Shown here piece after piece: positions 2,851 to 47,213 of a stretch of 64,000 bases of DNA. The number at the start of each line of letters is the position of its first letter. The first letter of the stretch is position 1. Made by a program: the position numbers and the translations under genes. This DNA is from Variovorax sp. KK3 (lineage in GTDB: Bacteria > Pseudomonadota > Gammaproteobacteria > Burkholderiales > Burkholderiaceae_C). The notes beneath the pieces were generated by a model. That model did not search any database. It had not been told where the DNA came from and worked only from the letters and a program-made list of their open reading frames with translations. The DNA lies in assembly GCF_001984055.1 (NCBI RefSeq), contig NZ_LYVO01000024.1:1-64000 (forward strand), written 5' to 3'.

Positions 2851-3957
<1,107 letters not shown>

Positions 3958-3979
3958 GGGGGATGGCAGGGAGTGAAAG

Positions 3980-3999
3980 GCGCGGAGAGGGTTCCGCGC
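3980..3999 (-). terminator. Hairpin between the fucose-type and formaldehyde operons
   Basis: A perfect 7-bp inverted repeat (GCGCGGA, 6-nt loop, TCCGCGC) lies directly after the stop codon of the minus-strand lactonase gene. On the minus strand it is followed by CCTTTCAC, a weak U-tract. It may end or dampen transcription between the two operons; it is not a strong intrinsic terminator. Confidence 0.4.
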
Positions 4000-4000
4000 A

Positions 4001-4846
4001 TCACTTTATGCCATAGAACGCGGCGGCATTCGTGCCGCGGATGGCGGCCTGTGCATCGATGGGCAACGCATCGAGCAGCGTGTCGGCCACGGCAATCCAT
4101 TGCCGGTAGTCGCCGGCGAGCTCGAGCACTGGCCAGTCGCTGCCCCACATCAGGCGCGTGGGGCCGAAGTGCATCACCAGGTGGTCGACCCAGGGGCGAA
4201 GGCGCGCGGCGTCCCAGCCGGGGCCGGCCTCGTTGGCCAGGCCCGAGAGTTTGCAGAGCACGTGCGTCTCGGCGGCGAAGCGCGCCATCTGCGACGCCCA
4301 GGGCTCGAACTGCGCGTTCGCGATGTCGGGCTTGGCCGCGTGGTCGATGACCATCGGCAGCCGCGGATGCGCACGCGCGAAGCGGAAGGCGGCGTCGAGC
4401 TGATGCGGCTTGATCAGGAGGTCCAGCCGCAGGCCGGCCTCGGTCATCGCATCGACGGCCGGTTGCACGGCAGGGCGAAGGATCCATTCCGGATCGGCGA
4501 TGTCCTGCAGCATCGGGCGCAGGCCCTTCAGCAGCGGCTCTTGCGCGAGCCGGCGGATGCGCGCGGGCGCATCGGCCGGCTCGAAGTCGGCCCAGCCGAC
4601 CACTGCGCGCACGCCGCTGTCGGGCTGCGCCGCCAGCACGAGCAGCCGCCAGGTCTCCGCCTCGCTGGGCGCGGCCTGCACGAGCACGGTGCCGTCGATG
4701 CCGGCTTCGGCCAGCAGGGGTGCAAGGTCGGCCGGGCCGTAGTCGCGGTAGATCGGCCGCAGCGCGGGCGTGTCCTGCAGCCAGCCGTAGTCCTGGTGCG
4801 CGGTCGACCAGTAGTGCTGGTGCGCATCGATGCGCAGCGCGGCCAC
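4001..4846 (-). CDS. Amidohydrolase-2 family sugar lactonase (L-fuconolactonase-like)
   Basis: A 281-residue protein of the COG3618 amidohydrolase family. The metal-binding IDAHQHYW motif is at the N-terminus and LMWGSDWP with the metal-ligand aspartate is near residue 250. Characterised relatives hydrolyse L-fucono-, L-galactono- or L-rhamnono-lactones. The GTG start at 4846 has AGGAG 8 bases upstream, and the upstream gene ends 3 bases before it. It follows an aldo/keto reductase and a FucU/RbsD mutarotase, so the three form the first steps of an oxidative L-fucose-type route (beta-pyranose, lactone, aldonate). The exact sugar is inferred from context. Confidence 0.8.
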   Translation of the reverse strand: MAALRIDAHQHYWSTAHQDYGWLQDTPALRPIYRDYGPADLAPLLAEAGIDGTVLVQAAPSEAETWRLLVLAAQPDSGVRAVVGWADFEPADAPARIRRLAQEPLLKGLRPMLQDIADPEWILRPAVQPAVDAMTEAGLRLDLLIKPHQLDAAFRFARAHPRLPMVIDHAAKPDIANAQFEPWASQMARFAAETHVLCKLSGLANEAGPGWDAARLRPWVDHLVMHFGPTRLMWGSDWPVLELAGDYRQWIAVADTLLDALPIDAQAAIRGTNAAAFYGIK

Positions 4847-45042: not shown

Positions 45043-45759
45043 ATGCTCGAACCCGCTGCAACTGCCCGGATGCCTGCTCCTTCCCGCTGGCGCACTCCAC
45101 GAAAGTCCATCTCCATCAGCCCGGCGCTGTTGCCCGATCCGCTTCGCGAGCGATTCGAATCCATGCTGCCCGTGGCAGCCAAGCGCAGCGTCGTGCAGTG
45201 GGAGCTGTGCAGCGAATCCGATGCCGACGTCGTGCTCCGCGAGCACGGCGTCCGCGGCGATGACCGGGTCAGCGTGTACGTCTCGGACACCGCGGTAGTC
45301 GACGGCGCGAACGGACACCTGCGCATCCAGCGCGAGTTCCGCGTCAATGCGCTGATGGAGGTGCTGGAGCTGGCAGCCGCCCGCGTGCTCGACCGCCGTG
45401 ACAGGGCCGTGCGGCACGTGCAGAGCGTGCTGGGCATGCAGCCCGAGCCTGCCGAGCCGGCAGCCAGCCTCTATCAGCTCAAGTACTGGATCGTCCCCGG
45501 CGATCGGCCTCCGTTGGCCGTGCTTTGCGCGCTCGCCGGCATGACGCGCAGGCCGGTCTCTCGCGAATGGCTGATGGCCGAGGCCGGTCTCGGTGTCGCC
45601 GCGGTCGATGTCCTGCTGGCAAAGCTCGACCGGCTGGGAGCGCTTCGCACGAATCCGCTGCCCCCCGCCGTTCCCCCGCAGCCTTCGGGCCTGGCCGCGC
45701 GACTGCGCCGATGGCTGCGCGGCGGTCGCGCGGCGTCTCTGTCACCGGCATCGCCATGA
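45043..45759 (+). CDS. Unrecognised protein with winged-helix-like C-terminal part, GTPase/Roadblock module
   Basis: A 238-residue protein that I do not recognise. The N-terminal 20 residues are basic. The middle (about 25-125) alternates predicted strands and helices, for example VSVYVSDTAVVD, then an amphipathic helix FRVNALMEVLELAAARVL. The part from about 145 to 205 (LAVLCALAGMTRRPVSREWLMAEAGLG, then VDVLLAKLDRLGALRTN) has the spacing of a winged helix. Its stop codon overlaps the GTPase ATG (ATGA). By position it could be the partner or reader of the GTPase, as DUF742 is in actinobacterial conservons. ATG at 45070 is an alternative start. Confidence 0.65.
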   Translation: MLEPAATARMPAPSRWRTPRKSISISPALLPDPLRERFESMLPVAAKRSVVQWELCSESDADVVLREHGVRGDDRVSVYVSDTAVVDGANGHLRIQREFRVNALMEVLELAAARVLDRRDRAVRHVQSVLGMQPEPAEPAASLYQLKYWIVPGDRPPLAVLCALAGMTRRPVSREWLMAEAGLGVAAVDVLLAKLDRLGALRTNPLPPAVPPQPSGLAARLRRWLRGGRAASLSPASP

Positions 45760-46277
45760 CGCCTCGCATCGTTCTCTTCGGCCCCATGGGCATCGGCAAG
45801 ACAACGGCGATTCGCTCGCTTTGCGGTGACGCGCTGAGCAGCTGCGAAGTGCCGAATCTCGCGGCGACGATGGAGGCCAAGCCGACGACCACCGTCGGTG
45901 CCGAATTCGGCGTGGTGCGCTTGCCGTCGAGCGACGAGGAACTCCACGTCTATGGCAGTCCGGGTCAAGACCGCTTCGGATTCCTGCGCCGATGGTTGCT
46001 GGGCTTCGCGGCAGGCGTGCTGGTGCTGGTCGACGTTCGCGAGCCCGACGCGCTGGGCCATGCCATGAGCATCGTCACTCAAGCCGCAGCGCTCGATCCG
46101 AGCCCCGCCGTCGCCGTGCTGGCGGCGCGCGCTGTGGATCGGTCCCAGCTCGAACAGTTCTCCCGAACCCTGGCGGAGCAGGCCGGCATGGCGGTGCCGG
46201 TGCTCGAAATCGACGTCCGCGATCGCGCGCAGATGCTCGATGCGCTGGAGTTGCTGGTCGCGGTGCTTCCCGACTGA
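45756..46277 (+). CDS. Small Ras-like GTPase (CvnD/MglA-like)
   Basis: A 173-residue single-domain P-loop protein. The G1 motif GPMGIGKTT is at residues 9-17, a G2-like PTTTVGAEFG at 43-52, and a G3-like YGSPGQDRFGF at 66-76. The PTTTV..EFG and GSPGQDRF patterns closely resemble CvnD GTPases of actinobacterial conservons and, more distantly, MglA. The usual N/TKxD guanine-specificity motif is not clear (VLAARAVD at 121-128). It is translationally coupled to the upstream gene and followed by two Roadblock/LC7 genes, whose products typically bind such GTPases. Confidence 0.82.
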   Translation: MTPRIVLFGPMGIGKTTAIRSLCGDALSSCEVPNLAATMEAKPTTTVGAEFGVVRLPSSDEELHVYGSPGQDRFGFLRRWLLGFAAGVLVLVDVREPDALGHAMSIVTQAAALDPSPAVAVLAARAVDRSQLEQFSRTLAEQAGMAVPVLEIDVRDRAQMLDALELLVAVLPD

Positions 46278-46287
46278 CCGGCCCCGC

Positions 46288-46701
46288 ATGTCCACACCGA
46301 AAACCCGAGCGCAGGCGCTGGCCGCGCACCAAGCCCTGGCCGGCCGCTACACCGAGATCCTGCATCGTCACACCGAGCAAGCGCTGGACCTCACGGCTGC
46401 CGTCATCGCCACCGTCGATGGAATCGAGATCGCCTCGCTCGCCGGCAAGCCGGGGCTGAGGCCCGCGCAGCTGGCCGCCATGGCCAGTTCGCTGATGGCG
46501 GTGGCCGTCGCCGCAGGCCGCGAGGTCGGCCACGGGCCCTGCGAGCGCCTCTTCATCGAAACGAGGGCGGGCACGTTGCTGCTCAAGCCGATCGGGCGCG
46601 CCGGCGACCTGGTGCTGTGCATGGCGCTGACGCCCCGCACGGTGCTGGCCAAGGCCTTCTGGGCCGCGGACGAAATCGGAAGGGCCGTCGCGACGAGCTG
46701 A
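46288..46701 (+). CDS. Roadblock/LC7-domain protein (first)
   Basis: A 137-residue protein consisting mainly of one Roadblock/LC7 fold: helix, strands TAAVIATVDGIEIASLAG, helix RPAQLAAMASSLMAVAVAAGREV, strands CERLFIETRAGTLLLKPIGRAGDLVLCMAL, and a C-terminal helix. Proteins of this family dimerise and bind small Ras-like GTPases as regulators. It starts 10 bp after the GTPase gene. Confidence 0.8.
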   Translation: MSTPKTRAQALAAHQALAGRYTEILHRHTEQALDLTAAVIATVDGIEIASLAGKPGLRPAQLAAMASSLMAVAVAAGREVGHGPCERLFIETRAGTLLLKPIGRAGDLVLCMALTPRTVLAKAFWAADEIGRAVATS

Positions 46702-46737
46702 TCGTGCCGCGTTCGCGCGCTGCACCCATCGCGTGTT

Positions 46738-46839
46738 CACCCACCTCCCTTCGCATCTCGCCGCATCTCGCCACATCTCCCCGCGCCCTCCGCTGCTCCC
46801 GCTCCTTCTCGCATCTCTTCCACCCATTTTTTCCACTCT
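46738..46839 (+). other. Pyrimidine-rich leader before the second Roadblock gene
   Basis: A tract of about 100 bp that is roughly 80 percent pyrimidine on the plus strand, with the 10-mer GCATCTCGCC twice in tandem (46753-46772) and a third degenerate copy. It ends 14 bp before the start codon of the second Roadblock gene. It is not coding and shows no stable hairpin. It may mark a promoter or leader, or a Rho-loading stretch. Confidence 0.6.
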
Positions 46840-46853
46840 AGAAAGCGACTGCT

Positions 46854-47213
46854 ATGGCTTCAATCAACGACTCTCTCGCCGCCATCATGGGCATCGACGG
46901 CGCACTCTGCTGTGCGCTGGTCGACAGCGGCTCCGGCATGCTGATGGGCCAGGCCGGCTCCGGCATCGACATGGAGATGGCGGCCGCCGGCAACACCGAG
47001 GTCGTGCGCGCCAAGCTGCGCACGATGAACTCGCTCAAGCTCAACGATTCCATCGACGACATGCTGATCACGCTGGGCAAGCAGTACCACATCATTCGTC
47101 CCTCGGCCGCGCACACCGGCCTGTTCATGTACGTCGTGCTCGACAAGGCCCGTGCCAACCTCGCGCTCGCGCGTCGCAAGGTGCAGGACGTCGAATCCGC
47201 GATCAGCCTTTGA
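46854..47213 (+). CDS. Roadblock/LC7-domain protein (second)
   Basis: A 119-residue protein with the Roadblock/LC7 layout: MGIDGALCCALVDSGSGMLMGQAG (strand-turn-strand), a helix, then DMLITLGKQYHIIRPSAAHTGLFMYVVLDKARANLALARRKV. It is about as short as the fold allows and diverges strongly from the first copy, so it is not a recent duplicate. It lies 152 bp after the first copy behind a pyrimidine-rich leader and may have its own promoter. It ends 22 bp before the convergent VOC gene. Confidence 0.8.
   Translation: MASINDSLAAIMGIDGALCCALVDSGSGMLMGQAGSGIDMEMAAAGNTEVVRAKLRTMNSLKLNDSIDDMLITLGKQYHIIRPSAAHTGLFMYVVLDKARANLALARRKVQDVESAISL

Follow-up and report, generated by a model that had tools for sequence, protein, structure and literature searches.

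Four genes, here called A to D, lie in tandem on the forward strand of the window, the 64,000-nucleotide stretch of Variovorax sp. KK3 DNA that was analyzed. Gene A (45043..45759, 238 aa, with an alternative ATG start at 45070) would encode an adaptor protein. It is followed by gene B (45756..46277, 173 aa), which encodes a predicted MglA-type small GTPase according to its Pfam match to Ras, a PDB profile search, a motif table, and a tree. Gene C (46288..46701, 137 aa) encodes an MglB-like Roadblock/LC7 protein, and gene D (46854..47213, 119 aa) a second predicted Roadblock protein with a VDxxSGM signature, assigned by modeled fold, a weak profile search, and conservation. The stop codon of A and the start codon of B share an ATGA overlap (45756..45759, forward strand; read from the sequence), making translational coupling at this junction possible. 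No promoters, terminators, or Rfam families were found at the A-B-C-D locus, and the window contained no tRNA genes. The flanks of the module vary between relatives: on the left, the window (MFS, GMC, and IclR genes) matches Variovorax sp. WS11 (L029), while on the right (glyoxalase-type, FAH-type, and LysR genes) it matches genome G005 (L034). The GMC, IclR, glyoxalase, and LysR labels come from Pfam, and MFS and FAH from reading alone.

Relatives of the module were surveyed by tblastn and profiles. Strong copies (E of 1e-14 or better, counted by hand) were present in 12 of 37 genus genomes, the window's own included; six of the 37 were less than 90% complete. The genus survey comprised 15 of the 18 strong copies, excluding the window itself, G010, and one of two copies in G017, and seven weak matches (L015-L021) were left out of the module counts. 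The order A-B-C-D was kept in all 15 genus modules fetched, which had been found by B, in agreement with the original prediction that the four genes stay together. Among five named relatives, A-B-C was present in all and A-B-C-D in three. The family survey covered 33 D places of at least 121 bits outside the genus, in 32 stretches, and D-like domains in larger open reading frames were excluded from it except in three stretches (L109-L111). Here, A-B-C-D was present at 18/18 GTPase copies, the places having been selected by D, so that D is given, and D occurred without B in 15 of the 32 stretches. At the class level (65 of 87 places outside the family, in 60 stretches), A-B-C was found in 49/65 copies, 17 of which also had D within 3.5 kb, and an A-type protein lay 5' of B in 55/65, a count that includes BLUF-type proteins caught via their C terminus. 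A, B, C, and D are real genes and form a conserved unit.

The product of A is predicted, from its sequence and an AlphaFold model, to consist of a receiver-like domain (residues 20-133; 45100..45441), a winged helix (residues 140-212; 45460..45678), and, after a Pro-rich linker, a basic C-terminal tail (residues 216-228; 45688..45726), all encoded on the forward strand. The model had a mean pLDDT of 73.5 and a pTM of 0.45 and was built from a six-sequence alignment; together with this architecture, it bears out the winged-helix-like first gene that had been proposed. In the alignment, the window protein has a Glu at the position read as the receiver acceptor. A net charge of +2 or more was reached by the best tail 11-mer in 77 of 93 relatives. 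A first, stricter tail motif was found in only 21 of the 93, and a loose motif, drawn up after the tails had been seen, in 89 of them versus 642 of 1,860 control stretches. A membrane-binding helix at the tail was considered but is not claimed, the hydrophobic moment being only weakly above that of shuffled tails (mean z, 0.59; 18/93 at a P value of 0.05 or less). The suggestion that A could be a counterpart of DUF742 found some resemblance, confined to the winged helix: in profile-profile alignment with hhalign, it matched DUF742/CvnC over 51 columns (probability, 78%; E, 1.8e-5), while an unrelated IclR protein gave an E of 8e-4 against DUF742, below the cut-off. A Pfam search up to an E of 1 gave no DUF742 match for A. 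The profile model of A was iterated, and it also catches BLUF-type proteins through their C terminus.

The sequence of B places it as a Ras-like GTPase, as had been proposed, and of the MglA type. Ras was its best Pfam match, followed by ATP_bind_1 below the cut-off, and its profile reached SEC4 best among PDB chains (E, 1.2e-13), the best 60 of 509 rows being all eukaryotic Rab/Ras types, with MglA absent from those 60. On these matches, the candidate reading of B as a member of an unrelated ATPase family is rejected. Motifs G1 (45780-45806), G2 (45879-45899), G3 (GSPGQ, 45954-45968), and a G5-like DVR (46212-46220) were located on the forward strand. In a tree of 65 hand-picked loci out of 100 with B, in which Groups 1, 4, and 5 are hardly represented, B fell inside a 63-row clade of beta- and gammaproteobacterial sequences (support, 96/93, from a bootstrap still short of full convergence). 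Inside that clade, it belongs to an 11-row subclade (100/100) that also contains sequences of Variovorax, Xenophilus, Ralstonia, and Comamonas type. All 11 members have G[SC]PGQ at G3 (GSPGQ in 8 and GCPGQ in 3), while 46 of the 55 other rows have GTPGQ and 2 have GSPGQ. The P loop, the G2 Thr, the G3 Gln, and the G5-like D-x-R were kept in 11/11 members, none of which has [NT]KxD in the aligned G4 region; the noted lack of a clear N/TKxD motif was thus confirmed. A different small GTPase occurs in the genus at L052 (5460-9045) and L053. The one at L052, flanked by an OmpA-domain protein and a SpoIIE-type phosphatase, resembles the Rup Group 1 neighborhoods outlined in the excerpted text of PMC4316618. 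That text describes the Rup family as not coupled to MglB; B itself has two Roadblock genes 3' of it, and the sole Rup-like row lies far from it in the tree.

The presence of two different Roadblock proteins, also part of the original prediction, was upheld on different grounds for each. C matched Robl_LC7 in Pfam (E, 1.2e-8), and an Asp-Gly pair was present in all 103 aligned C rows; PMC4316618, as excerpted, gives this pair as a conserved feature of MglB in Groups 2 to 5. D carries VDxxSGM in place of the Asp-Gly pair, had no Robl_LC7 match in Pfam up to an E of 1, and returned nothing in a single-sequence phmmer search, and its profile reached Roadblock chains weakly (best E, 0.0034). Its model, from four sequences, has the Roadblock fold (helix, two strands, helix, three strands, helix) and resembles MglB (6hjm) and MglC (7ct3). 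D is thus modeled as a fold relative of Roadblock proteins outside the Pfam family, and on this fold a non-Roadblock protein is rejected, weak as the profile evidence is by itself.

Of the four proteins, D stands out as much the best conserved in the genus modules, where mean identity to the window was 71% for D, 38% for B, 34% for C, and 16% for A (15 modules). The corresponding values were 68, 37, 31, and 16% in 18 family modules, which were chosen by D so that D identities are biased upward, and 36 (range, 7 to 69), 31, 25, and 11% in 26 class-level modules, a small lead for D. Matches to D were present in 27 plasmid records, 21 of them with 80% or more of its length covered; identity was 47 to 55% in Streptomyces, Nocardia, Nonomuraea, and Deinococcus and 39 to 43% over 57 to 71% of the length in Hymenobacter. 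Seven of nine plasmid stretches fetched have D without B according to the model, although in one of the seven, from Acinetobacter, a GTPase match spans the record start. Among the neighbors of D in the 15 family stretches without B, viewed as a possible functional clue, recurrent ones appeared only in small sets of loci, at most 4 of 15, D itself and frames antisense to it aside. On a Streptomyces plasmid (L062, 4031-6363), two D-type genes accompany a Roadblock gene and a protein whose DUF4388 match is below threshold; the model found no GTPase there.

D can also be part of a larger protein: at all seven Burkholderiaceae loci examined for this, it forms the C terminus of open reading frames of 388 to 573 aa. 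Larger frames with a C-terminal D-like Roadblock domain were seen at L109, L110, L111, L088, L089, L091, L092, and L094-L096 (388 to 573 aa, counted from the first possible start); in most of them, an SLFG[DE]L stretch is present close to the probable start. The wider stretches of L109-L111 each contain two D-like places 5 to 6 kb apart, and the one such large protein scanned (L095) matched no Pfam family. A third, D-like Roadblock gene, D', lies between C and D at L097-L099, L118, L120, L124, L127-L129, and L132, giving A-B-C-D'-D; the one scanned (L118) had a sub-threshold Robl_LC7 match (E, 5.8e-4).

The original prediction had proposed the module as a candidate undescribed switch, which does not hold: Group 3 MglA proteins of beta- and gammaproteobacteria were described in 2014 by Wuichet and Sogaard-Andersen, with the same gene content. 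In the excerpted text of that study (PMC4316618), Group 3 loci encode a conserved two-domain protein, MglA, and one or two MglB proteins, and systems with two coupled MglB proteins are already described. The first protein has a receiver-like N terminus, a variable linker, and a wHTH C terminus, and the GTPase has GTPGQ at G3, Thr replacing the Group 1 Arg at G2, a G4 without Lys, and DAR with a conserved Arg at G5. A-B-C-D has this gene content and first-protein architecture, and C is a coupled MglB with the Asp-Gly pair. In B, the G2 Thr is present; across its subclade, the aligned G4 regions lack [NT]KxD, and D-x-R is kept in 11/11 (DVR in the window). The differences from the excerpted description are GSPGQ instead of GTPGQ at G3 (Thr to Ser), the absence of [NT]KxD, and the Glu at the putative receiver acceptor of A. 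B was placed among beta- and gammaproteobacterial rows and apart from seven CvnD proteins of Group 2, in a tree composed without named published Group 3 rows. Taken together, these sequence features make A-B-C-D a probable Group 3 member from a divergent subclade.

Other known systems resemble the module in part. The Snodgrassella mgl locus, set beside it by description, belongs to the same group and has one mglA and two coupled mglB genes, but differs in having a third, orphan mglB (PMC11112851, as excerpted). In Snodgrassella, a mutation of the orphan mglB is associated with motile flares on soft agar, ascribed by the authors to type IV pili, and with better colonization of a non-native host (PMC11112851, as excerpted). 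Among the literature matches listed, this is the sole experimental lead on Group 3. Myxococcus MglA/MglB/MglC likewise combines a GTPase with two Roadblock proteins, which D resembles in fold, but the Myxococcus-type Group 1 motifs given in the excerpted PMC4316618, TVPGQ and an Arg beside the G2 Thr, are both absent from B of the window. In a Thermus plasmid module (L229), the protein encoded immediately 5' of the GTPase and Roadblock genes likewise has an input-type domain; the module differs in that this domain is DUF4388, a single Roadblock gene is present, and a protoglobin gene (3896-4486) is attached.

Modules with other apparent inputs were also encountered. At L060 (6396-7121) and L214 (8815-9564), both scanned, a BLUF domain replaces the receiver-like domain in the protein 5' of the GTPase, and these proteins pass the A model through their C terminus; the BLUF-type cluster comprises five loci (L060, L214, L200, L213, and L217). 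Three gammaproteobacterial BLUF-type rows (L060, L200, and L213) lie outside the 63-row clade of the tree, beside two Thermus/Deinococcus rows (81/43). Protoglobin genes lie inside or beside gammaproteobacterial MglA modules at L199 (8591-9151), L209 (11056-11646), and L175 (8347-8934), the scanned members of a four-locus cluster. Protoglobin genes at MglA modules suggest a gas or redox input. A PAS-domain gene and a phosphonate-binding-type gene, one of each scanned, lie 3' of the module at the same nine loci (L170, L176, L183, L188, L191, L192, L196, L208, and L209). At L204 (8298-9647), an ABC ATPase fused to a dual-specificity phosphatase domain lies just 3' of the GTPase, in a cluster of four loci of which one was scanned.

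The new observation made here concerns pili: pilY1 lies beside the module, within 3.1 kb, in 5 of 18 modules versus 0.068 expected under random placement, the limit having been set after the distances were seen. The count took in 18 modules (17 from the genus and one from the order), 12 genomes (11 and one), and 28 pilY1 copies, found with the pilus-linked PilY1 of L041 as the query (E of 1e-20 or better) and grouped by hand. If the modules are treated as independent, the probability is 1.1e-8 for five or more, 4.9e-5 for three or more, and 0.002 for two or more. In L041, L047, and L048, pilW-pilX-pilY1 is followed on the same strand by A-B-C-D, across a gap of about 12 to 31 bases, apparently as a single operon. 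In L043, the pilus set and the module are convergent, and in L035, pilY1 lies about 2 kb past D on the opposite strand. Because the GTPases of L041, L047, and L048 share one clade (100/98), which also holds L049 without a pilus link, the pilus-linked cases amount to at most three independent ones, perhaps two. In L041, PilY1 and PilW were identified by Pfam (T4P_PilY1, 1e-40; PilW, 3.7e-19) and PilX by position and between-locus homology only. The PilY1, PilW, and PilX models had no match anywhere in the window or within the next 19 kb, and no such link was found for the window's own module; the pilW-X-Y1 cluster of the strain lies on another contig. In the stretches fetched around other B copies (18 from the family survey, 65 at the class level, and 5 from named relatives), a model built from Burkholderiales sequences likewise found no PilY1. 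A link of Group 3 MglA with PilY1 or BLUF did not appear in the titles and abstract openings among the literature matches listed. The pilus-adjoining sister modules suggest what such switches may control.

We consider it likely that A-B-C-D is a GTPase switch of the MglA Group 3 type in which C and D regulate B and A serves as the input or adaptor, with type IV pilus-dependent surface behavior as the likeliest output. B would cycle between nucleotide states, and C and D, which probably pair as a heterodimer or form two distinct dimers, would set its hydrolysis, exchange, or cell location, a role modeled on MglB and MglC acting on MglA. The winged helix and tail of A may link it to the GTPase, DNA, or some other partner; in more remotely related modules, the protein that precedes the GTPase has a BLUF domain instead. 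The output could act through pilus assembly or through expression of minor pilin and PilY1 genes, and we infer it from the sister modules that adjoin pilY1 and from the Snodgrassella work on Group 3.

The original prediction had placed the module close to the actinobacterial conservons, and the two do share a GTPase with a deviating G4, a Roadblock protein, and a wHTH-type partner, to which the hhalign match of A to DUF742 can be added. That A-B-C-D derives from a conservon by rearrangement and loss of the CvnA kinase is nonetheless very improbable. B and its clade are separated in the tree from seven CvnD proteins (97/99), and six aligned CvnC proteins, at 111 to 156 aa, are too short to hold a receiver-like domain. 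Six of seven actinobacterial records have the order kinase-like gene, Roadblock, DUF742, GTPase, the seventh being without a listed DUF742 gene. A-B-C-D differs from this in gene order and in content: its GTPase lies apart from those CvnD proteins, A has no DUF742 match in Pfam, and no CvnA-type sensor kinase was found among five flanking proteins scanned. On the tree and gene order, a conservon that lacks its kinase is rejected. A degenerate B, no longer dependent on guanine or on hydrolysis and serving C and D as a scaffold, would fit the subclade-wide G[SC]PGQ and the missing [NT]KxD, yet the other motifs are intact in every subclade member. The absence of the G4 lysine has, moreover, been reported before in Groups 2 and 3 in the excerpted PMC4316618, where CvnD9, from a group often without this lysine, has GTPase activity. 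We therefore regard a degenerate B as unlikely, and the relaxed nucleotide specificity proposed for it does not follow, because CvnD9 has GTPase activity despite its deviating G4.

A closer contender, to which we give somewhat less than an even chance, is that the output is transcription: A would regulate by binding DNA, the GTPase would switch its winged helix, and pilus genes would be no more than one target of several. The receiver and wHTH architecture of A and the frequency of A-type proteins 5' of B across the class speak for such a regulator, but CvnC/DUF742, a component of a protein complex, is matched by the winged helix too, and the basic tail would fit an adaptor equally well. The same suggestion of a transcriptional role is made in the excerpted text of PMC4316618. 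A bolder reading would put D at the center in place of the GTPase, as a Roadblock family without annotation that is conserved across Pseudomonadota, Actinomycetota, Deinococcota, and Bacteroidota and occurs also without a GTPase or as the C-terminal domain of larger proteins. Exchangeable inputs (receiver, BLUF, and DUF4388) and MglA-type GTPases would assemble around it. Modules of this sort would have been captured into the pilW-pilX-pilY1 operon in Variovorax-like bacteria, setting pilus-tip assembly in response to the A-type input. We hold this to be doubtful.

For the preferred Group 3 switch, the mechanism is one that we infer; what most deserves follow-up is its linkage to pilus genes in sister modules and the D family. 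Because this family is conserved across phyla yet escapes Pfam, it would serve well for locating and dissecting similar systems. The sister modules that apparently share an operon with minor pilins and PilY1 would offer a direct and cheap test of prokaryotic Ras switches outside Myxococcus.
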